Of a stretch of 64,000 nt of DNA, positions 21,627-39,058 are shown one piece after another. Location of the stretch: NCBI GenBank assembly GCA_020974905.1, contig CP087563.1, positions 2,418,001-2,482,000 of the forward strand, given 5' to 3'. The notes beneath the pieces are model-generated. The model saw only the letters and a list, made by a program, of their open reading frames with translations. It was not told where the DNA came from and did no database searches. Every line of letters starts with the position of its first letter. Position 1 is the first letter of the stretch. The DNA is from Planctomycetes bacterium syqfu. Lineage in GTDB: Bacteria; Planctomycetota; Phycisphaerae; Phycisphaerales; Phycisphaeraceae. The position numbers were made by a program, and so were the translations under genes.

Positions 21627-22688
21627 TTATGCCGTCTTGCTCGGCCCTGTCGATTGTCCTTCAAATAAAGGAACACTTGGGGGTTTAACTAACAGTGAAC
21701 CAATCCATTTCTTTCCCCCGCGTATCATCCAGTCCATGCACACCGACAAATAAGGCATCGCATCGGGCATTTCCAAACAAGTAATGGATGGTCTGACCAG
21801 TTTGCACATTCCCCCATCATTCATTGTTGCAACAGAAACATCTTCGCCTACCTTGTATCCATGATCGATCAAAGCACTGGAGACACTGATGGAAGATTCA
21901 TCTGTCGTCGTCACAATCGCAGTTGAGTTGAATTTTCCTTCATCCAGAATGCGATTCATTTCTTCATAGGCCTTTTGCGTAGCCCATTCATAGGGTTGGA
22001 CATGAAAGTCATACAATTCGCCTTCGAAACCATGTACCGTGCGCCAAAGATTCCATTGCTCAATGCGGCTGAGTGTGGTGTCATCGTGCGGTTGCGCATT
22101 AACAAGAGATATATTTGTGTGGCCAAGCCTTTCAAGGTAATCCAAAATACGATGCATCCACTCCGGCGGGCACAATGTCACGGAAGGAACGCCATACTTG
22201 GACCAATCGCCACATGTCAGAACCAACGGGCAACCCGTATCCCGAAGGCGTTGGATAAAACCTTCTGGCAATGGCTCTGGAATTGGAACGAGAAAGATGC
22301 CATCAAATCCTTCCAGTGCATCGAGAATCACCGGGTCATTCCAGTGGACGTAATAGACGGGTCGCAAGACAGCGTTGTACTTTTGAGCGGTGCGCTGTGC
22401 CGCCAGTTGCCAACGTGCGACATCGTCTGACGGGTAAGCCGGCGCCAGGAAAGCAAACTGCAATCGTTCGTGACCTTTGGAAGATAACTTGGAGACAACC
22501 AGTCTGCCGTTGGGTTTGCGGTCGATAAAACCTTGATCCAGAAGATGCAATAATGCCTGTCGGGCAGTACGTCGGGCGACCCCGACCTGCTCTGCCAGTT
22601 CACGTTCCGTCGGAATGGCTTTGAGATTGTAGTCGCCCCGGTCAATACGCTCTTTGAGTGTATCCGCTATATCAGTATACTTTGCCAT
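21627..22688 (-). CDS. GntR-family regulator with LacI-like ligand domain
   Basis: 353 residues. Residues 1-68 are a winged HTH of the GntR type (IPTERELAEQVGVARRTARQ, LLDQGFIDRKPNGRLVV). From residue 75 a periplasmic-binding-protein-1 domain follows (LQFAFLAPAYPSDDVARWQ; DGIFLVPIPEPLPEG; VSVATMNDGGMCKLVRPSIT), as in AraR. It should sense a sugar and repress the operon it heads: pseudopilin, hydrolase, lipoprotein. A palindromic site sits 4-20 bases upstream of its start codon and overlaps the likely ribosome site, which suggests autoregulation. Confidence 0.88.
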   Translation of the reverse strand: MAKYTDIADTLKERIDRGDYNLKAIPTERELAEQVGVARRTARQALLHLLDQGFIDRKPNGRLVVSKLSSKGHERLQFAFLAPAYPSDDVARWQLAAQRTAQKYNAVLRPVYYVHWNDPVILDALEGFDGIFLVPIPEPLPEGFIQRLRDTGCPLVLTCGDWSKYGVPSVTLCPPEWMHRILDYLERLGHTNISLVNAQPHDDTTLSRIEQWNLWRTVHGFEGELYDFHVQPYEWATQKAYEEMNRILDEGKFNSTAIVTTTDESSISVSSALIDHGYKVGEDVSVATMNDGGMCKLVRPSITCLEMPDAMPYLSVCMDWMIRGGKKWIGSLLVKPPSVPLFEGQSTGPSKTA

Positions 22689-22708: not shown

Positions 22709-22973
22709 GGTTCTACAATAACAATACCCATCAGGATCAAGTAGTCAAGCAATCTGATTTTCAAAAACTGTCTTTTATCACAATCGTACTGGCATCATTG
22801 GGAGATCAATGTTGCCTGGATGTTAATGCGAACCCCAACACACAACCGACCCGTAAAGTCCCTAAGGTAATAAAACAAAACAAATAATAACACACACAAT
22901 CATTTATGAGTTTCGAACTAACAATCTGACTTGACTGTGTATTGGCCATGCCTATTATATATTACAAATATTT

Positions 22974-22989
22974 TTTGTTATGAATATTT
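22974..22989. promoter_or_regulatory. 16-bp sequence shared with the mannosidase operon promoter (site A)
   Basis: The minus-strand reading is AAATATTCATAACAAA, identical over 16 bases to 30534-30549; the following 13 bases match at 10. The site is 80 bases upstream of the sulfatase start. Because the second copy sits against the start of a GntR-type regulator gene, both are candidate operators of that regulator. Confidence 0.5.
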
Positions 22990-23068
22990 TTATCCCCCCG
23001 CCCTGTAATTTGTCAATCCATGTGGAATTCGAGGGTAATCTTGATCCACAGCACGATGGAATCCAACC

Positions 23069-24580
23069 ATGACCAGTCGGCCAAACATTCTCCTGATCAT
23101 CACTGACCAACAACGCTTTGATCAATTAGGTGTCAAAGGTCTGAACGCGATTCCCACGCCTCATCTGGATCGCATGGCACGCGAGGGTGTGCACTTTGAT
23201 CGAGCCTATACGCCCTCGCCCACCTGCACGCCGGCACGTGTCTCCCTGATCACCGGGCAATATCCATCCCGTCATGGTGCATGGTCGCTGGGCATCAGTG
23301 TTGACCAACTTGCCTGTCCAACAATCGCACAACAACTCAAGGATGCTGGCTATCACACATCGCTTTTTGGCAAGACGCATTTCGTCTGCCGTCAGGACGA
23401 AGGCAGTCACCTTGCTGGCGGTTGCGATCAGCCTAAGCCGGACATTGATTTCTACCGCAACTTCACGGGACCCTACCTTGGCTTTGATTATGTTCAGGTT
23501 GGCACGGGGCACACGATCAACAAATATCCCGACATGCACTATCACGTTTTCCTGGAAGATGCAGGTGTCGATTACAAAGCCTGGTTCCCACTGTTTGGTC
23601 CGGAATATGATCACGATTCGTGCGGACCATGGGACATTCCGGTCGAATATCACGACACGACCTGGGTAAGTAACAATGCCATCAAATGGATTCATGATCA
23701 TGCCGACACTCAGAACAACGAACCCTGGTTCTGCATGGCCGCGTTTGAAGATCCGCACGAACCGCTGGTCTGCCCGCGTCCCTGGTATGACAAGGTTGAC
23801 CGCAGCCAATGCGTACCATTTGAAGGCCCCCGTGATGGCGAGTTCGACGATAAGCCGGAATTCTACGGCAAAGCGGCGAAAGGTGATTGGTCAGAATTGG
23901 ATGATGGACATGGCGTTCCAAGTTCCTATTACACGCCGAAAAAAGACGAGCGTGCCATCAATGCATTACAAGCCACGCTGGGTATGGTCGGCCTGATCGA
24001 CGACCGCGTCGGTGCCATGATTCAAGCATTGGAAGAAACGGGACAAGCTGACAACACACTGGTGATCTTCACTTCCGATCATGGCGAATTGCACGGGCAT
24101 CACGGTTTCTGGGGTAAAGGCTTGACCGCCTATGAGGATTGTCAACGCATCCCGATGCTGATCTGGGAACCATCACTGGTCAAGGCTGTCGGCACGACCG
24201 ATGCATTGGCCAGTCTGATTGATTTACCACGTACAATTCTTGAATATGCTGGCGTCGCAATCCCCAACGGCATGCAGGGAACCGACCTGTCTCCGATTCT
24301 TAAAGGTGATGCTAAAACCATTCAGGATCACACCCTCATTGAATGTCGCGCAACGGACAAAATCTATCAGCAAACATTCATCACAGATCAATACAAACTC
24401 ATCGTCTACGAAGCCATGAATGACGGTGAGTTGTATGACCTGCACAACGACCCTGATCAATACATCAATCTCTGGGCCGATCCGGCTTTCACCGAACTCA
24501 AAACCACACTATTGCATCGCATGCTTCAAGCTCAAATGGCCAATGAAGGCACGCGACTACAACGCAAAGCTTTTGCATAA
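23069..24580 (+). CDS. type I sulfatase (formylglycine-dependent)
   Basis: 503 residues. The sulfatase signature C53-T-P-A-R57 (in SPTCTPARVSLITGQYPSRHG) carries the Cys converted to formylglycine; metal-binding residues are in NILLIITDQQRFDQL (Asp) and FTSDHGELHGHHGFWGKG (Asp-His). It hydrolyses sulfate esters, most likely on a sulfated sugar or oligosaccharide. There is no signal peptide, so it appears cytoplasmic, unlike many polysaccharide sulfatases. No maturase (anSME or FGE) gene is in the window. Operon partner is the GH5-like gene 20 bases downstream; the promoter region holds the shared 16-bp site. Confidence 0.93.
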   Translation: MTSRPNILLIITDQQRFDQLGVKGLNAIPTPHLDRMAREGVHFDRAYTPSPTCTPARVSLITGQYPSRHGAWSLGISVDQLACPTIAQQLKDAGYHTSLFGKTHFVCRQDEGSHLAGGCDQPKPDIDFYRNFTGPYLGFDYVQVGTGHTINKYPDMHYHVFLEDAGVDYKAWFPLFGPEYDHDSCGPWDIPVEYHDTTWVSNNAIKWIHDHADTQNNEPWFCMAAFEDPHEPLVCPRPWYDKVDRSQCVPFEGPRDGEFDDKPEFYGKAAKGDWSELDDGHGVPSSYYTPKKDERAINALQATLGMVGLIDDRVGAMIQALEETGQADNTLVIFTSDHGELHGHHGFWGKGLTAYEDCQRIPMLIWEPSLVKAVGTTDALASLIDLPRTILEYAGVAIPNGMQGTDLSPILKGDAKTIQDHTLIECRATDKIYQQTFITDQYKLIVYEAMNDGELYDLHNDPDQYINLWADPAFTELKTTLLHRMLQAQMANEGTRLQRKAFA

Positions 24581-24600
24581 CACAAACGAAGGAAGACAAC

Positions 24601-25572
24601 ATGTTGAAACTCGAAGGCGAATTAGCCAAATACAGCTATATCCGCGGATTTAACTATCAGCCCAGCTACGCAGCGCATGGCGTGATTATCTGGGGTGATC
24701 AATTCGACATAAACAAATTCGATCATGAAATCGGCCTTGGCAAAAAGTATTTCCCACACATCAACACCATCCGCATCTGGCTGTCCCACGAAGCATACCT
24801 GCAAAACCCTAAACAGTTCTGCAAACATGTGGACCAGGTGATCGACCTGTGCGATAAACACGATGTGAAGATGATCATGATGCTCTTCTCCGGCTGGCAT
24901 TCGATCCCGGACTTTGGTGGCCTGTCCATCGACACCTTTGAATATGCCACACGGTCATTCGAATATCTCTGCGAACCCTACATCCGAGATATCGTCGGCA
25001 AACATGCGGATGACTCACGCGTGCTGTTCTGGGATCTGTGCAACGAGCCACTATGCACAGCCAAGCGCCCCGAGGACCATCAGATTGTTTTTGACTGTCT
25101 CAAAAAGGTCTATGACAGTTGCAAGGGACACAAAGCCCAGTCCCCCATCACCGTAGGCACCATTCCCGGGATGTTGGAGCTGGAAATCTTCGAGCCGATC
25201 AGTGATGTGCTGTCAACACATCCGTATTACGCACATAATGCGTGGATCAAAGACGAGGCCTATTTCACTGAGCATCTGGACGAAATGATCGCGTTTGCCC
25301 AGTCGGTCAATAAGCCATTGTTCGTCAGTGAGTGTTGCTGGGGCAGCTATGACGATGCAGACCGTTGCAACAACATCAAGATTGAGTTGACGCAATTCAC
25401 ACAGCGGAACATGGGCTTCCTGCCGCACCTGTTGCATGAAACCTACGTCGCTGACGGGCATCGTCCTGAAATGGCAATGACAGCTCATCCGTTGAAAAAC
25501 GTCGGCTACATGGCCTTTATCAACATGGACGGAACACTTCGTCCCGGCCACGAGATTTACAATCAATTCTGA
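24601..25572 (+). CDS. GH5-like (cellulase superfamily) glycoside hydrolase
   Basis: 323 residues, complete TIM barrel without signal peptide. FNYQPSYAAHG opens the barrel, INTIRIWLSHEAYLQNP follows, the acid/base motif is WDLCNEP with E149, and the nucleophile candidate is E244 in PLFVSECCWG. These are the strand-4 and strand-7 glutamates of clan GH-A. Ribosome site GGAAG lies before the ATG. The cytoplasmic location and the adjacent sulfatase suggest it cuts a short imported oligosaccharide, perhaps after desulfation. The substrate is not predictable; beta-mannosidase or beta-glucosidase type actions are possible. Confidence 0.8.
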   Translation: MLKLEGELAKYSYIRGFNYQPSYAAHGVIIWGDQFDINKFDHEIGLGKKYFPHINTIRIWLSHEAYLQNPKQFCKHVDQVIDLCDKHDVKMIMMLFSGWHSIPDFGGLSIDTFEYATRSFEYLCEPYIRDIVGKHADDSRVLFWDLCNEPLCTAKRPEDHQIVFDCLKKVYDSCKGHKAQSPITVGTIPGMLELEIFEPISDVLSTHPYYAHNAWIKDEAYFTEHLDEMIAFAQSVNKPLFVSECCWGSYDDADRCNNIKIELTQFTQRNMGFLPHLLHETYVADGHRPEMAMTAHPLKNVGYMAFINMDGTLRPGHEIYNQF

Positions 25573-25613
25573 TATTCACAGGGATTCGCACACATCAAAA
25601 CAACTGAGTGATC

Positions 25614-25657
25614 ATGCCCCGCTGATTCGTCGTTCAATCAGCGGGGCATGCTTTTTA
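25614..25657 (+). terminator. strong rho-independent terminator
   Basis: Perfect 14-bp stem, ATGCCCCGCTGATT at 25614-25627 and its complement at 25636-25649, loop CGTCGTTC, followed by a T-rich run on the plus strand (CTTTTTAT). It lies between converging operons; the minus strand lacks a T-run, so it mainly ends the sulfatase/GH5 transcript. Confidence 0.88.
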
Positions 25658-25692
25658 TCACGAACCAGCAAATCAATCGGCGTGATCTGACA

Positions 25693-27834
25693 TCACTGTG
25701 TCCGCGTTAATCGAGATGGCATACCCAGGGTCCAATCCGTCATCAACGGTTTTTGCCAATGTTGAGTTGCGTATTGATCCAAGCGGCCAGACATATCATC
25801 GGAACCTGTCGTAAACCAAAAATGAAAATCATGCGAGCCCTGGTCGGCATAACGTGCCGAAGGGATTTTGCCATCGTGCGGCTCGTGATGGGCCATGATC
25901 GCACCACGTAAAAGCGTCAATCGGACACACTTCGCATCACCATCCAAAGCAAAGACATCCGGGCAGGCAATCGCCAACCGTGAAGAATCCGCCAACACCA
26001 GTTGCAACCAATCCTGCAAGGGACATTCCTTGCCTTCGGGTTGGCGTTGCAATGATCCGCCGGGAATGCCATCGATGCGATACTGGCACACCTCAGGTAA
26101 ATCCCAGACAAGTTTCAACACGCGATGTCTCTCGACCCAATCCACATGCAAGTCCAGCATCACACCCGGATGATTGGCATAGAGACGCCACGTGGCAGTG
26201 AATGGGCTATGCTCAATGCGACCCGTCTGCATGATGGATGCCAGCAGCGGACCTTGAGCTACCAAACGGGTTTGCTCGATGCGAACCGCGTCAATCACCG
26301 GCTCGTCATAACAGGCAATATTGTGCGACCATGTATCCGATGTGTCATGCTGTAACACAAGACGCGGGAAAGAAAACGTCCGGCCATCAAGAATAAACTC
26401 AGCAGACTGACCCAACGCAACGCGATCACCAAGCGCATTGCTAATTGACAACAGGTGTTCCACGGTCACGTTCTGCTTTTGAGGTGACTCCTCCAACGAT
26501 TTGGCAGGATTGGTATTAATGCACGCAACACAAATACCGTGAGGCTCTATCTGACAGGCAAACGTCAAACGCACCATGCCCTGGGTCGGAGCCTCCGCAT
26601 CAATCAGTTGATAATCAATGGGTTCTCCGGCGGGTGTTTCCAACTGCCAATGTTCTCGCCAGCGATTGAATTCCATCCATGGTTCAACTTCGACATAACC
26701 TTCAAAAACAGACTCAGATGGGTTGTAGAGCAAGATGCGTTGCCGCGAATCAGGAGTCAGTGCTTGCGCGTGTGCGATCACCTGATGGCGAAGCAAGCGG
26801 TCTGCTGTTGAACGAGCGGCTCCCAACTGGGCATGGATAATTGGATAAGCTGATGGGATACACGTGCCCCCGAGCGTGTCGTGGAACTGGTGAAAACAGA
26901 CGTGTTCCCATGCCTGCTGCATGGCCGTCTCATCACGTAACGATGTCACCGACTCGGCAGCGCGTAACTCGTATTCGGCCTTGCGCAGCAGCACCTTTGT
27001 CGGGCGATCCACACAGTAACAGCCAATCGCGTGATGCTGCAAATCACCTTGCACCACGGGCAGCTTATCCAAATCATCAGCAATGGCAGCAAAGAATCGC
27101 GACGGTGATGAGAACTCCAACTGAGCCCCATCAAATACATGCGCATTCTCCCGACACCATTGCGTCTGTGCCCGGGATGGACCACCGCCATGATCACCAA
27201 GGCCGATGAAACACATGGTGTGATCAATGCCTTCGGGTAAATGTTCCAGGGATGAACGGATATGCTCAGGGGCAATCTCCGCAAATGAGGTGCAATAGGC
27301 ACTGGCAATCCGGAACGTCGTCACCATCGGGCCATCGGGTTCACCTTGCCAACGAAACAGGCGCGCAGGCAACTGCTTTTCGTGTTCCTGCGGTCGCATC
27401 ATGATGTAATTGCGTTGCCCTGCTTCATGCATCAGGCGTGGCAAGGTTGCAGCATGACCAAATGAATCCACGTTGTAAGCAGTATCGGGGAATTGGCCGA
27501 ACTGCTTTTGAAAATACTCGCGTCCCAATTGGACTTGTTTTTCCAGCCCCCAATCACTTGGCAAATTGCAGTCAGGCTGAACATACCATCCTCCGACAAT
27601 CTCCCAACGGCCATTGGCAATATGTTGGCTGATACGTTCAAAGAGTTTGGGATCGTGCGTTTGAATCTGCTGATAAAACCAACTTTCGCCACGTGTGAAG
27701 ATCAGGTCATCACATTCATCGAGTTGATCACAGACACTTCGTGCAGTGGAGATCGCTTCAGCCAAACCCGCATGCCAGGGCCATAGCCAGATCGGATCAA
27801 GATGCGCGTTGAATATCAAGTGGACTGTTTTCAT
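25693..27834 (-). CDS. GH38 family alpha-mannosidase
   Basis: 713 residues, no signal peptide. The GH38 metal site opens with LIFNAHLDPIWLWPW (His-x-Asp); the nucleophile region is AYNVDSFGHAATLPRLM with the Asp in VDSFGH; further conserved parts are NYIMMRPQEHEKQ and MCFIGLGDHGGGPSRAQ. The mid and C-terminal beta domains follow. The enzyme releases alpha-linked mannose from oligosaccharides or glycans, here in the cytoplasm. Its start overlaps the stop of the SIS isomerase gene (ATGA), making the four-gene operon 30528 to 25693 tightly coupled. Two GH38 genes in one region point to a mannose-rich substrate. Confidence 0.9.
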   Translation of the reverse strand: MKTVHLIFNAHLDPIWLWPWHAGLAEAISTARSVCDQLDECDDLIFTRGESWFYQQIQTHDPKLFERISQHIANGRWEIVGGWYVQPDCNLPSDWGLEKQVQLGREYFQKQFGQFPDTAYNVDSFGHAATLPRLMHEAGQRNYIMMRPQEHEKQLPARLFRWQGEPDGPMVTTFRIASAYCTSFAEIAPEHIRSSLEHLPEGIDHTMCFIGLGDHGGGPSRAQTQWCRENAHVFDGAQLEFSSPSRFFAAIADDLDKLPVVQGDLQHHAIGCYCVDRPTKVLLRKAEYELRAAESVTSLRDETAMQQAWEHVCFHQFHDTLGGTCIPSAYPIIHAQLGAARSTADRLLRHQVIAHAQALTPDSRQRILLYNPSESVFEGYVEVEPWMEFNRWREHWQLETPAGEPIDYQLIDAEAPTQGMVRLTFACQIEPHGICVACINTNPAKSLEESPQKQNVTVEHLLSISNALGDRVALGQSAEFILDGRTFSFPRLVLQHDTSDTWSHNIACYDEPVIDAVRIEQTRLVAQGPLLASIMQTGRIEHSPFTATWRLYANHPGVMLDLHVDWVERHRVLKLVWDLPEVCQYRIDGIPGGSLQRQPEGKECPLQDWLQLVLADSSRLAIACPDVFALDGDAKCVRLTLLRGAIMAHHEPHDGKIPSARYADQGSHDFHFWFTTGSDDMSGRLDQYATQHWQKPLMTDWTLGMPSRLTRTQ

Positions 27835-28511
27835 GATGCAGTTAATTCCGAGTGTTGTGCAAAAAGCTGACTCTCAACCAGCAAACACAGAATGTGATAC
27901 AGCGCCAAGTGATATTCCTGCACGCGATAGGTCTCTAAGGCTGGTGCATGAAAAATAACATCACATAAGTTGTCCATGCGACAGTTTGTTTGGCCGGTCA
28001 AACCAATCGTGTGCATGCCCTTGACTTTGGCAGCCTGCAACGCAGCAACCACGTTGGCTGAATTGCCGGAGGTACTCATCGCAATGAGGATGTCCCCCTG
28101 CTGCCCCAGCGCATACACCTGCTGTGCGTAGGCAAACTCGTAACCGACATCATTGCCCATCGCACTGGTCAAAGCGGACTCTGCGGGCAGACTCACCGCG
28201 CGTAAACCGTAGACCAGATGATTGGAGAGTTTTTGTCCATCTTGATCGAAGGCATCAACAAAGGCCTGTTGATCCTGCTGTGATAATCTGCGAGGTAATA
28301 CAAAACTCTTGACCAATTCCCCAGTGATATGCAGTGCATCGGATGCACTACCACCATTCCCGCAAGTTAGAATCAGGTGCTGATTGTGATAGGCATCACA
28401 AAGCAGGTCACAAGCTGCCAAGATTTGGTCAAGATGGTTTTCCCATTCAGGATTGTCCTTCCCAAAGCATTCAAGTAACTGTTCACTTTGGACTGAAAGT
28501 GCTGATGACAT
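27831..28511 (-). CDS. SIS-domain sugar-phosphate isomerase, GmhA/DiaA-like
   Basis: 226 residues from the ATG at 28511, chosen because GGAGG is 9 bases upstream and the ATG overlaps the kinase stop as TGATG; a start at 28532 would lie inside the kinase gene. Motifs: GNGGSASDALHITGELVKSF (phosphosugar loop), LTSAMGNDVGYEFAYAQQV, LIAMSTSGNSANVVAALQAA. These are typical of phosphoheptose isomerase GmhA, but such proteins in PVC sugar operons often act with a ROK kinase on other phosphosugars. Whether it isomerises or epimerises mannose phosphates here is inference from context. Confidence 0.8.
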   Translation of the reverse strand: MSSALSVQSEQLLECFGKDNPEWENHLDQILAACDLLCDAYHNQHLILTCGNGGSASDALHITGELVKSFVLPRRLSQQDQQAFVDAFDQDGQKLSNHLVYGLRAVSLPAESALTSAMGNDVGYEFAYAQQVYALGQQGDILIAMSTSGNSANVVAALQAAKVKGMHTIGLTGQTNCRMDNLCDVIFHAPALETYRVQEYHLALYHILCLLVESQLFAQHSELTAS

Positions 28512-29449
28512 CAAGAACGTCCTCCATAACAAGCGGTGGCCAAAGCAGCATAATCACCAATTTGCTCCCCCAGACGAGCAGGTAAAATCTCACATACATC
28601 CAGGCTGAGTTTGAGTGCTTGGGCTTTGAGTTCTTTTTCAAGAAGCGGCCGCAGGATCGATTCCTGACGGGTGAAAATACTGCCTAATACGATCTTTTGT
28701 GGATTGAGTAGATCAATCAGAATTGCCAACCCACGTCCAAGTTGCATACCAACCTGCTCAACAAGCTTTTGGCAACGCATATCGCCATCAACTGCATTTT
28801 CGAAAACCTCACGGGCTGAAAATTGCATCCCGTGCATCGCAGCAGCATTGGCCAACCCACCGCCAGAACAAAAGCCTTCGAAGGAACCAGGCTTGTTGTA
28901 GCCTACCAAACCTGTGTCTTCCAAACGGATATGCCCAACTTCGCCAGCCAAATCATTGGTGCCTGCGTACAAGCGTCCGTTGAGAATCAACCCCGCTCCC
29001 ATGCCTGTCCCAAACGTGAGGAACACCATGTTGTCACAACACTCACCAGCCCCCCACGACCATTCAGCCAACGCACAGGCGTTGGCATCGTTCTGCAAAT
29101 AGGTCTGAATACCAAGGGAATTCACAGTCTCTTTGACAATTTCAACTTCATCCCAACCCGGCAAGTTCGGTGGCCCCAGAATCATGCCACGACGACTGTT
29201 CAACGGTCCACCACAACTGATACCGATCGCACTGACGTCCTGTTTTGCAAGACGATGAGTAGCCATCAAATCCTTGGACATTGCCAGTAACTGCTCAATC
29301 GTTTTATCTGGTGTTTGCGTGTCTGCTGTGTCAAAAGCAAGCTTATCGTCAATCATCATCTGTTGATCTTCAACGTGCCCCAAAACCACCGCGCATTTGG
29401 TTCCGCCAATGTCCCATCCCAGATATTGCTTGTTTAATGCACTCATCAA
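28511..29449 (-). CDS. ROK-family sugar kinase
   Basis: 312 residues. Phosphate-binding LGWDIGGTKCAVVLG near the N-terminus, QNDANACALAEWSWGAGE, FLTFGTGMGAGLILNGRLY and LAGEVGHIRLE are all ROK hallmarks (glucokinase, mannokinase, N-acetylmannosamine kinase). The canonical zinc motif CxCGxxGCxE of the family is not present; the region reads NKPGSFEGFCSGGGLAN with a single Cys. The probable substrate is the monosaccharide freed by the GH38 enzyme of the same operon, i.e. mannose, but that is inference. Start overlaps the regulator stop (ATGA), stop overlaps the isomerase start. Confidence 0.88.
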   Translation of the reverse strand: MMSALNKQYLGWDIGGTKCAVVLGHVEDQQMMIDDKLAFDTADTQTPDKTIEQLLAMSKDLMATHRLAKQDVSAIGISCGGPLNSRRGMILGPPNLPGWDEVEIVKETVNSLGIQTYLQNDANACALAEWSWGAGECCDNMVFLTFGTGMGAGLILNGRLYAGTNDLAGEVGHIRLEDTGLVGYNKPGSFEGFCSGGGLANAAAMHGMQFSAREVFENAVDGDMRCQKLVEQVGMQLGRGLAILIDLLNPQKIVLGSIFTRQESILRPLLEKELKAQALKLSLDVCEILPARLGEQIGDYAALATACYGGRS

Positions 29450-30528
29450 ACGGCTCGTGTAGCATCAGCAATCGGCTGACTGGTGGACTGGCCAATACGT
29501 AATTCACTTGGCAAGACAATGCGTGTGATCTCGTCTGAGGCATGGTCGATATGGCTAAGCAGTAATTCGACTGCCCGTTTGGCGATGGCTTCCAATGGCT
29601 GAATGATGCATGTCATAGGTGTCGACGCAATGATCGAATCAAACGTCGCAATGGATAAATCGTCAGGCACGCTTAACCCTAACCGCTGTGTTGCAGCCAA
29701 CAAGGCCTGGCCTAGCGGATCTCCTGCAATGCTCCAGACGGCAGTGGGTTTGTTTTTCTTGATCCAACTGGCAATACGCTTGATGAGTAACTCATGCTCC
29801 ATGCCATGATCAACCGTCAAAACAAGTGATGCTTTAGGGCTGATGTCGGCAGCACGCAGGGCCTGTTCGTAACCACGTGCACGATCCTCAGGTGTACTAC
29901 CATGACGATGACGGATTAATCCAATCCGTTTGTGTCCCAATTCCAAAAGATGATGGGTCAACATCATCGCAGCATGTGCGTTATCCGAAACAACGCTGTT
30001 GACTTCCATCGTCTGCGGATAGCGGTCCACCGCGACGGCTTTCATCCCACTGGCTGCAATCACACTGGCAATCGCCTGGTTGTCATCCACATGTTCCTTG
30101 GATGAAATAGGTGACCAGATCACACCATGTAACCCCATCTTCCGCCAATGTTCGATACAGGCAATGGCCTGCTCACGGGTTTGATGGCACTGAGACAAAA
30201 CCATGCTGTAACCGGCATTGAGTAATGTTTGTTCAATTGTCGGGAGCATGGACAATGTTTCGCTGATCATCACGCCGATCAACTGGTTGCTGTGCTGTTC
30301 GGGTGTGTGCCCCCAAGCAGACTTGTCGGTGACATGGGTTCCAAGACGGCCACGCGATCGGATATACCCCCGCTGGGTCAACTCCCGAAAGACAGCGGCC
30401 AATGTTGCCGGACTGCATTGCAACTCCACAGCCAGATCACGAATGGGCAGCAGGCGCTCTCCTGGCTTGTACCGGCCATTGTGAAATGCTTGAATCAAAT
30501 CATTGAGTATGTCGTCTTGTCGGGTCAT
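29446..30528 (-). CDS. GntR-family regulator with LacI-like ligand domain
   Basis: 360 residues. An N-terminal winged HTH (GERLLPIRDLAVELQCSPAT, LTQRGYIRSRGRLGTHV) precedes a sugar-binding domain (LIGVMISETLSMLPTIEQTL; GHKRIGLIRHRHGSTPEDRA; DDLSIATFDSIIASTPMTC). It heads the kinase/isomerase/mannosidase operon, all genes overlapping by 1-4 bases. The 16-bp site 30534-30549, 5 bases upstream of the start, recurs before the sulfatase gene, so this protein may control both flanking operons. Confidence 0.88.
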   Translation of the reverse strand: MTRQDDILNDLIQAFHNGRYKPGERLLPIRDLAVELQCSPATLAAVFRELTQRGYIRSRGRLGTHVTDKSAWGHTPEQHSNQLIGVMISETLSMLPTIEQTLLNAGYSMVLSQCHQTREQAIACIEHWRKMGLHGVIWSPISSKEHVDDNQAIASVIAASGMKAVAVDRYPQTMEVNSVVSDNAHAAMMLTHHLLELGHKRIGLIRHRHGSTPEDRARGYEQALRAADISPKASLVLTVDHGMEHELLIKRIASWIKKNKPTAVWSIAGDPLGQALLAATQRLGLSVPDDLSIATFDSIIASTPMTCIIQPLEAIAKRAVELLLSHIDHASDEITRIVLPSELRIGQSTSQPIADATRAV

Positions 30529-30533
30529 AGCCT

Positions 30534-30549
30534 AAATATTCATAACAAA
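30534..30549. promoter_or_regulatory. 16-bp sequence shared with the sulfatase promoter (site B)
   Basis: AAATATTCATAACAAA, identical to the minus strand of 22974-22989. It lies between the upstream gene region and the GntR-type regulator start, where binding would block transcription or ribosome loading. Function inferred. Confidence 0.5.
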
Positions 30550-30655
30550 GAATTTTTGATATGATTGGCTATTGTCCAGCAAATGTCAAGTACCACGGGT
30601 TTCAAATCTCAAATTTAACTCACTGCAACTTTTTAACTCAACAATCCGTGACCAG

Positions 30656-31834
30656 TTAACGGTTCAACGGCTTGGATTGCAGAAAACTTGTATCCACTGG
30701 TGTTTGAATACTTTTTCCGCTTTCAGAAATCAGACGAACAACTCGACCATCGTCTATTGGCAAAATTCGACGCACCTTATCAAAACCCGCAGGAGTCGGT
30801 ACGGCTGCCATAATGTAATTCACCACCAACGGGCGTTTAGAAGACATTGTGACACAGGTCGGACTGCCTGCATTGCTGATAACGTTGGGTTTGACCGACT
30901 CGGCCAAGCCGTAATGGAAATAGGACGTCACTTCTTCCAGGCCCATGACGTTAACATGTCTGCCACTCCAAGGCGCATAATGCCGACCGCCGTTGGACAT
31001 CCACATCAGTGTCTGGTGCAAGACCTGCGGATCTTTGAGCGCAAACCACACGTAGCGTTGTCTGGGGAAACTGACCGCGGTCCAGGCAAACGGTTGACAC
31101 GGCTTGGTCACCAGAATGGCAATGTCCTCGTAACCCCGCCTTGCCGGATAACGTGACAGATCGGTGTAGTCGCCTGTTGCTAATTTAACTTTCTTCAAAC
31201 TGCGAAAACGATATCCGGGTGCCAAGGCACAATAGCCTCCTTGCGCGGGGTCTTCCGTAATCACCGGCATGGTCATGCCAAATTCAAACGGGCTGGTGGA
31301 GAGCAGGCCACTGCCTTCCTCGTCAGGGAATTTAAGCGTGGCATGGTGTCCAAAACTCATCTTCCCACGCATTTCTGAAACCACATGTTGACTGTATACC
31401 GCATCATGACCGTCAACGAGCATGATCCGTTTGTCTACATGTCCTTGACGAATCTTTGTCTGCAAGCGCAGATGCAGACAGACACGATGATCATGTTGTG
31501 TGAGACTCTGCAGCTTCCAACCGGCATTGGCAGTCTCGCCATGTGGGGGATATTTTTCGTTGCGATAAACCGTGTCGTTGCCACCAAAAGGCATGCAGAA
31601 AAAATCGCCACGTAATCCCCTTAGCAAGGGTGGTGTATCTTGAGACAGTGATTCATCATGCCAAGGTGCAATGGCCATCGGCTCAATACATCTACCGCAA
31701 CGATCGAAAGTAACAGGCGCCAGTTGACCGGCATTTTGTGTCACATGAGCTTGTACAGTGCTTGAAGTCAATCGCCATGAAGGTTGATCTGCAATCTTCA
31801 CAAGCCTCGCCGAAAGATATTTGGATTCTGCCAT
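30656..31834 (-). CDS. conserved hypothetical protein, mutarotase-like beta-rich fold
   Basis: 392 residues without signal peptide. Not recognised with certainty. It is beta-rich, starts with WRLTSSTVQAHVTQNAGQLA and PVTFDRCGRCIEPMAIAPWH, and has GLRGDFFCMPFGGND and RYPARRGYEDIAILVTKPCQ. The order of elements resembles galactose-mutarotase-superfamily domains (aldose-1-epimerase-like). It sits 28 bases downstream of the second GH38 gene in the same direction, so it probably handles the same sugar. No catalytic residues can be named. The 127 bases to the next start upstream of 30528 hold the shared operator. Confidence 0.5.
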   Translation of the reverse strand: MAESKYLSARLVKIADQPSWRLTSSTVQAHVTQNAGQLAPVTFDRCGRCIEPMAIAPWHDESLSQDTPPLLRGLRGDFFCMPFGGNDTVYRNEKYPPHGETANAGWKLQSLTQHDHRVCLHLRLQTKIRQGHVDKRIMLVDGHDAVYSQHVVSEMRGKMSFGHHATLKFPDEEGSGLLSTSPFEFGMTMPVITEDPAQGGYCALAPGYRFRSLKKVKLATGDYTDLSRYPARRGYEDIAILVTKPCQPFAWTAVSFPRQRYVWFALKDPQVLHQTLMWMSNGGRHYAPWSGRHVNVMGLEEVTSYFHYGLAESVKPNVISNAGSPTCVTMSSKRPLVVNYIMAAVPTPAGFDKVRRILPIDDGRVVRLISESGKSIQTPVDTSFLQSKPLNR

Positions 31835-31862
31835 AGTCTATTCATTACTTTCTGACTGCTTT

Positions 31863-34475
31863 TCAATCACCAATGATACGCTCATGCTCAATAACAATTT
31901 TAACTGTTGTCAGTCCATGTGCTTCGATAGGTACGAAAATACAACTATCTTTTCCTGACAGTTCCTGGATATTGATGCTTTCGAGAAAATCATATAAATA
32001 GAATTTCGCAGGAAGCTTGGTTTGCCAACTGATTATAGCATCGCATGACAAACCCGCAGTTTCCTTAAGTCGCAACACCAAGGTATCCGGCTCATTTTTT
32101 GCTGGTTTAAGGTATTGCACAACGACGTTGTCTGAATTGATATTCAACCATTGATAATCGCCATGCTTCACCGGTGCAACACGCCCTGAAACTGGAACAC
32201 AAAATGTTTGAGCCCAAGGTAAAAGCTGGCTGGCTGAAGCCCTCCCCAAAGAGGGTGCAAAACTGAAATGAAACGACATTCGCCCACCTTGCGATCCCTT
32301 GAAGTTTGTGAAATAGAGATTATTCATGAGCCATGCATGAATGTGCCCTTGTTGCGGATTCAATTGACGCTGCCATTTACCCGTTTGGAAACCACCCAAC
32401 TGAACCAGTGGAGCTTCACGCGTTGCCCAAAGCATGCTTGCTCTTTGATCCGTAACTACCATGCCTGACTGAATGCTGTACCAATCACGACAGGTGTCTG
32501 GCAACTGTTCAATATCCGCGTGATAAGTCGCATTGGCAGTATCAAGCAAAAATTCAGGCTTGTTGATAAGGAATGGAAAGAGAACATGCACGCTTTCCAT
32601 CTCAAAATTATCGACCTTGTCCAGAACCACAGCCACATCAACATCTGGTTTGTCATCACGAAAAGTAAACGTCGTCTCAATGCGCGGCAGGTAAGGCATA
32701 TTCGTCACGGCTGTGACTGTGGTCATGCCGTCCATACTTTTGATTGACAATGGTTGTGTCCCAGTTGCAGGCGTATGTAAAAAGCGTGGCCCCGGAGATT
32801 CTGGCCTGAAGTGGAAGCGGTTTTTTGTACGCGTCGGGTGTGGATCATCAGGATCAGCCTCCTCGTACACCACGCCACCGATACCAGTCAGAGCCGACTC
32901 ATCCACCCACTGACGCTTGAGTTTCTTGTCGTAAAGATGGGTAATCGATCCACTCGCGGCATCGATGATCGCTGTATAGTAAGGCGTTTGAATAGTTGCC
33001 TGCCTCTCCACCATCTGTTCTTGGGGCACTGGCGATGCTTCAATCGGAATGGCTTTGACACCAAACGGCGGAATATCACGCACTAGCCGCTTGATGGTTT
33101 CTTCCTCTTCAAACAAAGTCCGCTCTTCCTGCTGCCCGAGTTGTGGTGGTTTATTGACAGTTACCCAGGCATCACGTTTCGTCCCCAGGGGATTGACCAC
33201 GACAAGTGAAAGATCCTCCGAAGCTGGCAGTGAGTAGACAAGATCCGCGATGGCTTCACGTTCAAGCTCGTGCGCAAGATAGGCTGCGTTATAGGCAAAA
33301 GCTGCCTTCTGGTTCCAGTGTGCCTGTGCAAATAACGTATGCGGTCGATCCACACTTTCGTTGCTGCCCCATGTATGTTCTTCAAAAAGAAGCAGTTGTT
33401 CATAAGCTTTGTCAATGTGCTCCTGCCAATGGGTACCGCTTGGAAATCCTTCATCACCATACCAATGACTCAGGGATGCAAGCGGGGGTTTTCGTGCAGT
33501 CTCAATTTTGCTTTGCACAACACACAACGAACGAGCGGTTTCGGCAGTTCGTAACTGACCTCGCGCGGAGCGAGCAGCAGTAACTTCAAAAGCACTCGAA
33601 CCATGGCCATGCGCCCAGTAATCCGCCCATTCACCACGGTAAGTTGGTAAATTCGCGTCTTTAGCCTGTTGATGCGCCAACGCCATGGCTGTGTCAATGG
33701 TGACGATTCGCATTGGAGGAAAATTACCCTGCGCGTTCCATTCTCTGACTGCTTCGCAGCAAGCGTCATCTGCCAGTCTATTATCCATCCCACTATGAAT
33801 GACTGCAAAATCAAATGGGTAATCATCGCGTTGCTCAAGACGTTGCAACAATTCGCTGATCGGTTTGCCAGCGTCCTTGCTTGTCCCGGTATGGAGTTTG
33901 CACGAAAGATGCCCAAACGAGTAGGTGATATTCAACCAAACCAAGACGCGTGAGCCATCTGGACCTTCCCAATAAAACGCGGTAGGCTGCTCAAAAGGCG
34001 AACGTCCATGATCGGGATTAAGCGTCATGACAAGCGTATCAATTCCTGCTTGGCTCATCAGTTGAACACTGCCCCAACTCAACCCGTTCACATCACCGTG
34101 CTGAACGACGGAAACTGGCAAACCATATCGGTCACGCAAAATTCCAACAGGCTCAAAGAAGCGGACGTATTCCTCCGCCCCGATGAGTTGGGTCATATGC
34201 ATAAATCCGCCCGTCACCGCAATTCGCTGTGCATGCACCAACTCCTGAAAGCGGCAAACTTCATCTCGTGATGCTGATTCAAGAAAACGAATCACCGGAT
34301 AACTGGTCTCACAGGTCCAGCAAAATCCACTGGTCTCATCTGCCAATGACTTCTCACAGAGTTCAATACTTCGAGCGACCGCTTGAATCTGCATATTTAG
34401 TGCAGCCTCCGGCACATGTGTATAGCCCACGTCATGATGCGTCTGTGGAACAATTAAAAGCTGTTGGATTTTCAT
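31863..34475 (-). CDS. GH38-like alpha-mannosidase, divergent long form
   Basis: 870 residues, no signal peptide. The metal site reads LIVPQTHHDVGYTHVP (His-His-Asp), and the segment VVQHGDVNGLSWGSVQLM occupies the position of the nucleophile loop of GH38; VLNPDHGRSP-like residues follow. The C-terminal half has the domain order of the family, with DAASGSITHLYDKKLKRQWV, the marker of GH38 C-terminal domains. The catalytic neighbourhood differs from the enzyme at 25693 (GDVNG instead of VDSFGH), so linkage or substrate may differ. It lies between the ManA-like gene (67 bases upstream) and the mutarotase-like gene, most likely one operon starting at 36450. Confidence 0.8.
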   Translation of the reverse strand: MKIQQLLIVPQTHHDVGYTHVPEAALNMQIQAVARSIELCEKSLADETSGFCWTCETSYPVIRFLESASRDEVCRFQELVHAQRIAVTGGFMHMTQLIGAEEYVRFFEPVGILRDRYGLPVSVVQHGDVNGLSWGSVQLMSQAGIDTLVMTLNPDHGRSPFEQPTAFYWEGPDGSRVLVWLNITYSFGHLSCKLHTGTSKDAGKPISELLQRLEQRDDYPFDFAVIHSGMDNRLADDACCEAVREWNAQGNFPPMRIVTIDTAMALAHQQAKDANLPTYRGEWADYWAHGHGSSAFEVTAARSARGQLRTAETARSLCVVQSKIETARKPPLASLSHWYGDEGFPSGTHWQEHIDKAYEQLLLFEEHTWGSNESVDRPHTLFAQAHWNQKAAFAYNAAYLAHELEREAIADLVYSLPASEDLSLVVVNPLGTKRDAWVTVNKPPQLGQQEERTLFEEEETIKRLVRDIPPFGVKAIPIEASPVPQEQMVERQATIQTPYYTAIIDAASGSITHLYDKKLKRQWVDESALTGIGGVVYEEADPDDPHPTRTKNRFHFRPESPGPRFLHTPATGTQPLSIKSMDGMTTVTAVTNMPYLPRIETTFTFRDDKPDVDVAVVLDKVDNFEMESVHVLFPFLINKPEFLLDTANATYHADIEQLPDTCRDWYSIQSGMVVTDQRASMLWATREAPLVQLGGFQTGKWQRQLNPQQGHIHAWLMNNLYFTNFKGSQGGRMSFHFSFAPSLGRASASQLLPWAQTFCVPVSGRVAPVKHGDYQWLNINSDNVVVQYLKPAKNEPDTLVLRLKETAGLSCDAIISWQTKLPAKFYLYDFLESINIQELSGKDSCIFVPIEAHGLTTVKIVIEHERIIGD

Positions 34476-34542
34476 CTAAAGATCTCTGATAACCAACTAC
34501 AAAATAATACTGAAAACAAAATGAATACAGAGCACACGCTGG

Positions 34543-36450
34543 TTATTCGATCCCCCAGTCACGTTCTTCCTGTGCTTTATCAATATGATCCCTTGGTTCG
34601 GTGATCAAGAACGTCTTGACAATTTCACATCGGCTATCACCAAGATTTTCAATGGCATACGGTCCAAAACAAGCTGGTAAAATAATGCTGTCACAATCTT
34701 CCATGATAAATTCGTTGGAAGGATCACGCTTTGAGTAAACCCTCGCTTGAGTTCCTAGTGTAAGCGAGAGGCAATGAAACATATCATCCGTATCGTCCTC
34801 AATCTGATGATCGAATTCAAATCGATTGACCTGATAAGGCATGTTGTAATGCATCGGGAAAGACATTTCCTTCCAGCCTTCCCCCTTCCGAATACAAACC
34901 GGCTCAGGACGAACTTTTTCGGTCATATACTTCTGTTTCCGGTTTCGACGCATGACTGCCAGACTATGGTCAACACTCAAACGTAACGGCTTGCCAGTCA
35001 AATCATGCTTTTCATAGTTCCAACACGGTCGACAATAGTCATACAAAAAGAATGAATATTCCGTGGATTCCCGACTGGGATTGGTATCTATTTCCAGGAT
35101 CACCTGACGCCCACCCGTTCCATGAACCGTGCCAGGAGGAAGCTGATGCAACTCGCCCGTTTTGCTGGGATGTTCATAGATAAACTTCCGCCAGTCGAAT
35201 TCCTGATGCGTTTTTTCAGACTTGCGAACTTCACGAATATATTCGTCAATGTCTGCATCATCCTTAAAACCATGCATGGTACAAGCACCTTCATCCGCCC
35301 GAACGATGTAATACGTCTCGTAACGTCCGATTGGTTCATTGAAGTTCTCCCGACAATAAGCCGTATCCGGATGAATGTGATTGGGCATATGGGTTCGATG
35401 AAAGTCAGGCTTCTTCGGATCATCAAACCAACCGTCCTGCATGTAAATGGCAATGGGGAAATGATCCGGATAAGTCGCATTGGAATAGGCTCCCAACAAG
35501 CGAAGTGGCTGGCCATAGAGCACATTGTAAAACGGCATCTCCAAAATACGCCCATCACCCACATCCACAAGCATATGGTTATCGCCCACACTGATCTCAT
35601 AGTCCCAACTGTTATTGGGTAATCCTGGGACATTGAACCGTTTCCCAAACTCTGTCCCACCGAACATCCCGGGCATGTAGAAAACTTTAAAAGAAATTGG
35701 CCGTCCAGATAGTTCTGCAATCAATGCGTGATACACATCTGCAGGCACAAGCTTGGGATCCTGTTCTTCAGAAGTATCCAAATACCAATCCATTCGCTTT
35801 AGAAGTTGTTTTCGATGCCGATTGAGCATTGGATATTCAAAATAATAAACGCGTTTGAAGGGATAACCGTTGGGCGTATCCTCACCAACCGGCAGCAACT
35901 CACCGCGTTCAGCTTGGATAATCGTCTGCTCTCGTGTCACATCACACCATGCAACACGATCGAACAGATGCCGCCATGTCTCCAACGCTGCCCCGACGCC
36001 ATAACAAATCACGACTGTTCGCCAACGAGTACCAACACGGATACTTTGCCACTGCTCAATCGTGTCTTGAACTTTCTGGCTATCTGTCAGTTCCTCGATA
36101 TTGCCCGAAAAGACATAGCCAAAATCTGGATCCTCCGGCTTTTCATATGGTTTAGCGATTTCATCAAGCTTTGCTTTGGGATAAAATACATTATTGACAT
36201 TAAATAGCATCACATTGATGTCTGAAGACTCAAGTGAACTGCGTATTCCGTCAAGAATAGAATTGATCCGTGCCCCTTTGTATCCATCCAATGCAAAAAA
36301 GACCGGGCGCGCCAGGCGGTCAACATCTGCCAGCAGTGTTTTTACTATGCATTGATGTATTCCATCAGAACCGTTTAGAATTTGTTTTTGCCATGTTTCG
36401 GGCAATGCTGGACGATTAATGCAGTTATCCGGGGAAGTAAACCATGCCAT
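34543..36450 (-). CDS. ManA-like cupin protein with N-terminal kinase-like extension
   Basis: 635 residues. The C-terminal ~250 residues resemble class I mannose-6-phosphate isomerase: TYPDHFPIAIYMQDGWFDD, HMPNHIHPDTAYCRENFNE, and HQLPPGTVHGTGGRQVILE with metal-binding His residues of the cupin. The N-terminal ~200 residues (RPVFFALDGYKGARINSILD, LFNVNNVFYPKAKLDEIA, VVICYGVGAALETWRHLF) look like a nucleotide-kinase-like fold, but a clear GxxGxGK[ST] loop is not visible. Long forms of this type occur in other bacteria. The probable role is interconversion of mannose and fructose phosphates or a related sugar, fitting the adjacent GH38 gene. First gene of the 36450-30656 operon. Confidence 0.6.
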   Translation of the reverse strand: MAWFTSPDNCINRPALPETWQKQILNGSDGIHQCIVKTLLADVDRLARPVFFALDGYKGARINSILDGIRSSLESSDINVMLFNVNNVFYPKAKLDEIAKPYEKPEDPDFGYVFSGNIEELTDSQKVQDTIEQWQSIRVGTRWRTVVICYGVGAALETWRHLFDRVAWCDVTREQTIIQAERGELLPVGEDTPNGYPFKRVYYFEYPMLNRHRKQLLKRMDWYLDTSEEQDPKLVPADVYHALIAELSGRPISFKVFYMPGMFGGTEFGKRFNVPGLPNNSWDYEISVGDNHMLVDVGDGRILEMPFYNVLYGQPLRLLGAYSNATYPDHFPIAIYMQDGWFDDPKKPDFHRTHMPNHIHPDTAYCRENFNEPIGRYETYYIVRADEGACTMHGFKDDADIDEYIREVRKSEKTHQEFDWRKFIYEHPSKTGELHQLPPGTVHGTGGRQVILEIDTNPSRESTEYSFFLYDYCRPCWNYEKHDLTGKPLRLSVDHSLAVMRRNRKQKYMTEKVRPEPVCIRKGEGWKEMSFPMHYNMPYQVNRFEFDHQIEDDTDDMFHCLSLTLGTQARVYSKRDPSNEFIMEDCDSIILPACFGPYAIENLGDSRCEIVKTFLITEPRDHIDKAQEERDWGIE

Positions 36451-37627: not shown

Positions 37628-37661
37628 TCGATTGATGGTAATGCTCTGTGGCATCAGATAA

Positions 37662-39058
37662 CTAGTACTACAGTTGCGCATTATGATCTGGTTCTCTCGC
37701 CCTGTAGTGGTAATACTTTGCGACGGCTTGGTGGTGTCTTCGCCAAGCCGACCAGGCTAACGCGCGTTCTACGTCGTTGAACCGGGGCCAGACGATTGCC
37801 AGCATCAACCGCCGAATCTCCGGCTCGGTTACCGGGACCAGATCAACGCCCCTTTTTCCGTGGGCTGGTGCACTTGGGATCGCACGACGCTCAAGAACGC
37901 CAACGCCAACATCGACAACGTGACATGGCGATGCCAACCCGTCCACGAGCGCACTTCATAGGCATCGAGTCCGACTTCCTGTTTGGCCGTCTGGAAGCAT
38001 GTTTCAATCGCCCAACGCTGGCCGGCGGCCATCGCCAAGTCCTGCAACGTCGCGTCCAACGGAGCAGCACAAAAATAGTAAGCTCGTTGAGTCGGTTGCT
38101 CCACATTGCGTCGAACAAGTAACCAGTTTTGCAGATCACCGCGCTCGTGTTCGATCGGATCGCCGAACTTGCCGCCGGCCCATTGATACACACGCGACCC
38201 CTTGGCACCTTCGCCGATGCTGTGCGTCTGCCATTGCTCGTCAGGCACATCATCAATGATCGCATCGACACGTTGCCGTTGGAAGTTCACCCACAAGCGC
38301 TGTTGCGAGGTCACCGCCATGACATACGCTTGACCATGATCTTCCAAAAAACGCCTTGTTTTACTGTCTGAACCGTACACTTCATCCGCCAATACCCAAC
38401 GCGGTTCAAGGCCCGCATCCAGCGCTCGACGCAACATCGTCACCGCCAGTTGAGGCTTGGTGGCGAACTTCACTTCCGGGGGAACGCCTGCTTCGGATCG
38501 ACGTGCCTGATCCTCGCACCAATCCTTGGGCAGGTACAACGCCCGATCAATCAACGCCCGACCACGCGACGAAGCCATCGCCAGAAACACACCCACCTGG
38601 CAATTCTCAATTCGACCCGCCGTGCCCGAGTACTGACGTTGCACGCCAACCGACTTGTCGCCCTTTTTCAGAAAGCCCGTCTCATCGACGATCAACACCC
38701 CGCCGGCCGCATCCCCAAGTAAATGATCCACTGCATAGCTTCGCACCTGGTCGCGCAGTTGATGAGCATCCCACGATGCCCGACCCAACAACCGTTGAAA
38801 AGCGTGGGGCGTTTGAAGTCCGACTTGTTCAGCCAGTTGCCAACTGTTCTTGCGATGAACATCACCGAGCAGGCCCTGCACATAAGTCGCCGCCCGAAAT
38901 CGCAAATCCTTGCGAGCAAAACAATCGCCGATCTGCTCCCACATCTCTGAAAAGTCATTGGCCCAATGACTCACCGTTGCAGCATCCATGCCCATCCCTC
39001 CAGTCATATCAAACGACTGATGATATCGGCAATTGTAGATGCGCAACTGTAGTACTAG
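37662..39058 (-). mobile_element. IS701-family insertion sequence with CTAG flanks
   Basis: CTAGTACTACAGTTGCGC at 37662-37679 is the perfect complement of GCGCAACTGTAGTACTAG at 39041-39058. The first four bases, CTAG, fit the YTAR-type 4-bp target duplication known for IS701, so the element itself is 37666-39054 (1,389 bp). One transposase gene fills it. The right CTAG overlaps the left junction of the IS630 element. Confidence 0.85.
37668..38989 (-). pseudogene. IS701-family transposase, frameshifted near the 3-prime end
   Basis: From ATG 38989 (GGAGGG 6 bases upstream) the frame encodes a DDE transposase of the IS701 family: GVLIVDETGFLKKGDKSVGV (first Asp), WVLADEVYGSDSKTRRFLE (second Asp), QRWAIETCFQTAKQEVGLD (Glu). 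It stops at 37829 after TEKGALIWSR. The expected ending, DLVPVTEPEIRRLMLAIVW to REPDHNAQL, continues in a frame shifted by one base at an A5G4 run (37849-37857) and ends in a TAG inside the terminal repeat. Either the element is inactivated or the run supports slippage; the first is more likely. Confidence 0.8.

Follow-up and report, generated by a model that had tools for sequence, protein, structure and literature searches.

The 64,000-nucleotide stretch of the genome of Planctomycetes bacterium syqfu that was analysed here as a whole (the window; contig CP087563.1, positions 2,418,001 to 2,482,000) contains an identical 16-mer in the promoter regions of two convergent operons. One of them comprises genes for a sulfatase and a GH5-like glycosidase, the other, in this order, a GntR/LacI-type regulator gene (29446-30528) and genes for a ROK-family kinase, a SIS-domain protein and a GH38 alpha-mannosidase. 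With a probability of roughly two thirds, the 16-mer is part of a predicted operator of the 29446-30528 regulator, which as a repressor would govern its own operon as well as the sulfatase/GH5-like pair; support for the predicted control is firm for the former and moderate for the latter. Control of both operons by this regulator had been proposed in a first-pass annotation of the window. The proposal gains from an operator-like site that is common to both promoters and kept before the orthologous regulator gene of Phycisphaerales bacterium UBA7800, and it had overlooked a second regulator encoded beside the sulfatase.

Exact copies of the 16-mer, AAATATTCATAACAAA, lie on opposite strands where the first-pass annotation had placed them (Table 1), and the similarity of about 29 bases that it had also claimed was reproduced, with ungapped identities around the 16-mer of 23/25, 25/29 and 25/30. 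Since the sulfatase gene (23069-24580, + strand) and the regulator gene (- strand) face each other, the two copies, though inverted, point the same way with respect to the genes downstream of them, and TTTGTTATGAATATTT is the reading of both copies toward the gene behind them. The 7.38-Mb genome holds two exact matches to the 16-mer, none with one mismatch and five with two mismatches; a reversed-pattern control gave six matches within two mismatches. Within the window, the third match with up to three mismatches was located at 24372, inside the sulfatase gene. The 15-mer TTGTTATGAATATTT is common to the sulfatase promoter, the regulator promoter and the region upstream of the UBA7800 regulator orthologue, with two exact copies in the window's genome (G000), one in UBA7800 (G003) and none in the genomes G001 and G002. 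Near-matches in UBA7800 on C15, C19 and C88 were found inside open reading frames (ORFs).

A repeat somewhere in a 64-kb window is unremarkable, because 20 Markov sequences contained between zero and nine repeated 16-mers (mean 2.8); the real window contains 22, grouped into seven places. For the intergenic regions before the sulfatase and the regulator (380 and 127 bp), none of 3000 simulations reached 15 shared bases, the longest shared word being 14. When the two window regions and UBA7800 were compared together, the three-way shared word was 15 bases long, and the longest in 2000 simulations was nine. The pairwise tests (2000 trials) were weaker than the three-way test, with 16 observed bases against a simulated maximum of 14 for sulfatase-regulator and likewise for regulator-UBA7800, and 15 against 15 for sulfatase-UBA7800.

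In UBA7800 the orthologous operon is present with its gene order kept and with identities of 76% for the regulator, 73% for the ROK, 67% for the SIS and 74% for the GH38 protein. There TTGTTATGAATATTT ends seven bases before the regulator start codon, 15 of the 16 bases of the 16-mer are kept in order, and the gene that directly follows the site is that of the regulator, as in the window's genome. Between the window regulator and its UBA7800 orthologue, two positions differ in the predicted recognition segment LQCSPATLxAVFRELTxRGYI.

The UBA7800 site is a perfect palindrome, CATAACAA-TTAATTC-TTGTTATG, of which the 15-mer forms the right half. Compared with CATAACAA at a spacer of seven, the left arm agrees in 8/8 positions in UBA7800, 7/8 before the window's regulator and 6/8 before the sulfatase, and this total of 21/24, for arms that were defined after having been seen, was reached in none of 20000 simulations. 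The right half is extended by AATATTT, which reaches 22989 at the sulfatase site and 30534 at the regulator site; this tail is conserved, lies outside the palindrome and is not accounted for by it.

Both window sites adjoin sigma-70-like promoters (Table 1), and in UBA7800 a promoter TTGACA-N16-TATAAA is followed by the operator after one base (hand count). The predicted sulfatase operator starts at 22960, one base downstream of the -10-like hexamer, and the predicted regulator operator starts at 30563, overlapping the -10-like hexamer by three bases. Counted from the first base of TTGAC(A/T), the operator start is at 29 for the sulfatase, 26 for the regulator and 29 for UBA7800 (the last by hand). 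In orientation and geometry the sulfatase site corresponds to the autoregulatory one, with a -35 spacing that is three bases off that of the window's regulator and equal to that of UBA7800. Promoter-like matches in the stretch are no commoner than in shuffles (8 vs a mean of 10.2); the promoter-operator arrangement recurs at all three sites. An operator at the predicted transcription start would fit repression.

The nearest sequence matches of the regulator's helix-turn-helix (HTH) part (residues 1-75) in the PDB were Lin1836 and Lmo0741, a type that we take to be YtrA-like. In NCBIfam, the HTH part matched the MocR-type PdxR and others, with HutC at 7.9e-8. The sulfatase carries a CTPAR motif, presumably its active-site motif, and its best PDB matches were 7oz8 (named choline-sulfatase) and then 5g2v (N-acetylglucosamine-6-sulfatase). 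A single-sequence structure model of the GH5-like protein had a mean predicted local distance difference test (pLDDT) score of 41.8 and was not used. Inspection by eye revealed no signal peptides in the sulfatase, GH5-like, GH38, SIS and ROK proteins, so a shared pathway of these five enzymes would be cytoplasmic. The SIS protein was considered as the genome's sole phosphomannose isomerase and rejected in this role, as PF20511 had a match above cut-off elsewhere (PF01238: none). Because this type I phosphomannose isomerase domain is present elsewhere in the genome, the SIS protein may serve another sugar. Convergence of the two operons on one terminator had also been claimed; the convergence stands (the GH5-like gene ends at 25572, the GH38 gene at 25693), and the terminator is left to the + operon only, the stem at 25613-25650 being unlisted as a terminator for the - strand.

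From the sites with their orientation, their placement at promoter-like sequences and their conservation in UBA7800, and from the protein families, we infer binding, repression, inducer and substrate as follows. The 16-mer would be the right half plus the AATATTT tail of a 23-bp operator, CATAACAA-N7-TTGTTATG, bound by the 29446-30528 regulator and placed at the expected transcription start of the regulator-ROK-SIS-GH38 operon and of the convergent sulfatase/GH5-like pair. In the uninduced state the repressor would keep both promoters shut; binding of a sugar to its LacI-type domain would release it from them, with mannose, a manno-oligosaccharide or a phosphorylated product as the probable ligand. 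The cytoplasmic enzymes would then remove sulfate from an imported oligosaccharide that contains mannose, trim it and hand the mannose over to central metabolism, in the presumed order that GH38 frees mannose, ROK phosphorylates it and the SIS protein isomerises it. A sulfated mannose-containing glycan is a plausible substrate.

Table 1. Positions of the shared 16-mer, predicted regulatory elements and genes in the window
Feature	Position	Strand	Remark
Second GntR/LacI-type regulator, divergent from sulfatase	21627..22688	-	same domain plan as 29446-30528
GT-N5-AC element AGTTTCGAACT	22909..22919	+	above sulfatase -35
Sigma-70-like sulfatase promoter TTGACT-N16-TATTAT	22931..22958	+	10/12 positions
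Predicted operator, sulfatase side, TATTACAA-N7-TTGTTATG	22960..22982	+	14/16 to palindrome
16-mer, copy 1, AAATATTCATAACAAA	22974-22989	-	exact match
S1-type sulfatase	23069..24580	+	SGSH_C domain, CTPAR motif
GH5-like glycosidase	24601..25572	+	nearest solved relatives endo-beta-1,4-mannanases, weakly (E 2.1e-7)
Terminator-like stem, 15 pairs	25613..25650	+	between convergent operons; T-run on + side only
GH38 alpha-mannosidase	25693..27834	-	final gene of regulator operon
SIS-domain sugar-phosphate isomerase	27831..28532	-	GmhA-like, under curated cut-offs
ROK-family sugar kinase	28511..29449	-	domain match
Regulator, GntR winged helix + LacI-type sensor	29446..30528	-	PF00392 residues 6-66, PF13377 residues 192-349
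16-mer, copy 2, AAATATTCATAACAAA	30534-30549	+	exact match
Predicted operator, regulator side, CATATCAA-N7-TTGTTATG	30541..30563	-	15/16 to palindrome
Sigma-70-like regulator-operon promoter TTGACA-N17-AATCAT	30561..30589	-	10/12 positions

The observations collected in this paragraph and the following one weigh against an operator common to both operons. The sulfatase site is the poorest fit to the palindrome of the three sites. Palindrome scans with up to three mismatches, counted per strand and compared with a reversed control, stayed at background level (22 vs 32 in the window's genome, 13 vs 20 in UBA7800, 24 vs 20 in G001 and 24 vs 25 in G002), and two-mismatch matches were also present in G001 (two) and UBA7800 (one). 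Only the best palindrome sites carry weight, namely the perfect one in UBA7800 and two with one mismatch in the window's genome, one of which is the regulator site. A repeat finder listed the palindrome in UBA7800 only; in the window it returned nothing of the kind upstream of the regulator gene, and upstream of the sulfatase gene another inverted repeat. The order AC-N11-GT of the predicted operator, as seen in UBA7800, is unlike the usual GntR order GT-Nx-AC. A second palindrome, AAATATTC-N8-GAATATTT, fits the window sites slightly better (7/8 + 7/8 vs 6 + 7 for the chosen one), but was ranked second because of its worse fit in UBA7800 (5/8 vs 8/8).

Close regulator orthologues were found in two of 51 family genomes at E 1e-25, the window's own included. 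In a class sample of 397 genomes, searched with five candidates scored per genome, relatives of the regulator occurred in four, the two further ones at 27-29% identity. Because a close orthologue is present in one other genome, one independent promoter was available for comparison. The HTH part of the regulator (residues 1-70) is 67% identical to that of UBA7800 vs 77% for the rest of the protein. The best sulfatase match in UBA7800 reaches 35% and is no close homologue, though the operon and the site are kept there. When 23 loci with sulfatase relatives were compared with 20 control loci, a GH38 match was present in one (G018) vs none, a GH5-like match in none vs one, and a relative of the second regulator in none vs three. 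The former set consisted of 20 of the 30 listed places and three others (G018, whose GH38 was already known, G055 and G002), the control loci were hand-picked from other sulfatase matches with 10/20 from the window's own genome, and the loci were 4.5-19.9 kb long, so some were too short to show a neighbour. This neighbourhood test gave no general support for a sulfatase-GH38 or a sulfatase-GH5 link. The tie between sulfatase and mannosidase would accordingly be a matter of the window's genome, and the sulfatase arm appears to be without comparative support. Finally, the second regulator, absent from the first-pass annotation, has in common with the sulfatase the intergenic region in which the 22974 copy lies.

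Control of the sulfatase by this second regulator is the main rival. It belongs to a wider alternative, for which we see perhaps a minor share of the probability, in which the 29446-30528 regulator runs its own operon only, the match before the sulfatase is due to chance or is a relic, and the pair is under the 21627-22688 regulator or another protein. Repeated 16-mers are indeed expected in 64 kb, but none of the 3000 simulated pairs of the two regions shared 15 bases. The site exists in UBA7800 without a close sulfatase homologue, whereas the sulfatase match follows a -10-like hexamer at the UBA7800 distance of one base and has a left arm of 6/8. The second regulator gene is divergent from the sulfatase, and the relatives of its product were found near other sulfatases in three of 20 control loci vs none of 23. 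The GT-N5-AC element AGTTTCGAACT above the sulfatase -35 may be the site of the second or another regulator, but this element is without a second exact copy in the window. The sulfatase may be under dual control.

It is considerably less probable that the 21627-22688 regulator, alone or additionally, binds the shared site itself. The two regulators have the same domain plan, and the intergenic region between the second regulator gene and the sulfatase contains the 22974 copy, 286 bases from the start codon of that regulator; however, its HTH is nearest to YvoA, with the AraR DNA-binding domain also among 10 PDB matches at E 0.01, vs Lin1836/Lmo0741 for the 29446-30528 regulator. Moreover, no further copy of the 16-mer with up to three mismatches was found nearer to the 21627-22688 gene in the window, and the 15-kb UBA7800 locus with the site contained no match to the second regulator. 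Relatives of the second regulator (27-46% identity) were found at E 1e-30 in eight of 61 genomes searched, the own genome included. In UBA7800, a divergent GntR/LacI-type gene (L001:8400-9602, - strand) faces the regulator orthologue, which puts the site between divergent regulator genes in that genome as well; this gene gave no match to the window's second regulator at E 1e-6.

Slightly less probable still is a conserved promoter or 5'-leader element, e.g. an initial transcribed sequence, in place of an operator: the position at the expected transcription start and the conserved AATATTT tail outside the palindrome would suit it, but two exact copies only in the genome are unlike a general promoter element, and the spacing of the conserved left arm is constant.

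Two further near-copies in the window's genome were judged to be chance matches. The sole one-mismatch copy of the 15-mer, ATGTTATGAATATTT at C1:361590-361604 (L068:11590-11604, - strand), precedes by 169 bases a TonB-dependent receptor gene, which is itself divergent from DUF3450/ExbB genes. As a further operator it was rejected, with a left arm of 2/8 by eye and about one such copy expected (hand estimate); it possibly marks an importer of the same regulon, or is due to chance. The other one-mismatch copy of the palindrome, at C1:2507964-2507986 (L054:9964-9986), falls in the short gap that separates a radical-SAM activase gene, with whose stop codon it overlaps, from an amidohydrolase gene; GlcNAc-2-epimerase-like and PFL-like genes precede it. 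It was not accepted as a third operator on account of this overlap and the missing AATATTT tail, yet only about 0.08 such copies were expected (hand estimate).

Other observations concern the neighbourhood and the enzymes. Upstream of the regulator operon and on the same strand, a second GH38-like gene (31863-34475) lies between the large ORFs 30656-31834 and 34543-36450, both without a Pfam match at E 0.001, in the region 30656-36450 (-). At 37661-40058, two kinds of transposase genes are adjacent (37829-39046, DDE_5; 39064-40058, DDE_3 with HTH_32), and a 21-base inverted repeat was found at 37661-37681 and 39039-39059. A 103-codon ORF of UBA7800 (L067:8135-8446, - strand) that is 41% identical to the window's GH5-like protein over residues 14-91 of the latter is an apparent gene remnant, and a full-length relative of this protein (38-41%) is encoded beside a melibiase-type gene on a 4.7-kb contig of G002. 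Near the gene for the closest sulfatase relative (50%, in G123) lie a GH130 gene and another sulfatase gene, a neighbourhood that is suggestive only. The genome itself is rich in sulfatases, as one sulfatase query gave 81 matching stretches at E 0.001, some genes accounting for more than one of them.

A system of this kind, in which a local repressor that responds to sugar serves two targets, is already known. AraR of the Bacillus subtilis arabinose regulon acts locally and represses several sugar operons whose promoters contain palindromic operators (PMC4218819, PMC4494728). In both AraR and the 29446-30528 regulator a GntR winged helix is joined to a LacI/GalR-type sensor, and the PDB matches of the window protein include the sensor domain of AraR (3tb6). 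The operators differ, since that of AraR, At(T/A)tGTaCGTAcaa(A/T)T, is 16 bp long with the order GT-Nx-AC (PMC4494728), whereas the predicted one has 23 bp and AC-N11-GT. In a sequence test, the AraR DNA-binding domain was missing among 17 PDB matches of the 29446-30528 HTH at E 1, so this HTH is not AraR-like. YtrA-type operators have conserved pairs far from the centre (PMC4494728); the 23-bp predicted site would fit them in size, but with the GT/AC order reversed.

With regard to the enzymes, Cutibacterium acnes has a cytoplasmic GH38/GH5_18 locus for N-glycan, where a cytoplasmic GH38 alpha-mannosidase and a cytoplasmic GH5 enzyme act on a mannose-containing glycan, as is proposed for the window, while the available part of the account names no sulfatase for this locus (PMC6160142). 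At E 0.01 the GH5-like protein had nine PDB matches, none of them the structure of the C. acnes GH5_18 enzyme (6GVB). In Polaribacter, sulfatases and alpha-mannosidase turn C6-sulfated alpha-mannan into mannose, and the mannose-6-sulfate sulfatase is assigned to S1_11, as is the 5g2v enzyme, the second-best PDB match of the window sulfatase (PMC13063451). The Polaribacter system uses GH195 and GH92 enzymes with S1_51 and S1_11 sulfatases, and its enzymes are secreted or periplasmic (PMC13063451), whereas the window has GH38 and GH5-like enzymes in which no signal peptide was seen by eye; the main text of that paper mentions neither GH38 nor GH5. The scan for GH92 was confined to 20 proteins of the window and gave no match. 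The system of the window appears to resemble the C. acnes GH38/GH5_18 pathway more than the Polaribacter sulfated-mannan pathway.

A literature search, with subscription journals mostly outside it, returned, apart from one general survey, no paper on such a regulon or pathway in Planctomycetes. Only tentatively, and with more doubt than confidence, can it be suggested that a cytoplasmic sulfatase and GH5-like glycosidase are tied by an operator copy to an alpha-mannoside regulon, in a route unlike GH92/GH195 and under a presumably YtrA-like HTH with a LacI sensor that reads AC-N11-GT. If this is true, a cytoplasmic route for sulfated mannose glycans would exist in this organism, e.g. for fragments of diatom C6-sulfated mannan or for sulfated N-glycans. 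We know of no established substrates for most sulfatases in such genomes. The shared operator would be evidence for a partnership of sulfatase and glycosidase and would make the guess at their substrate testable.

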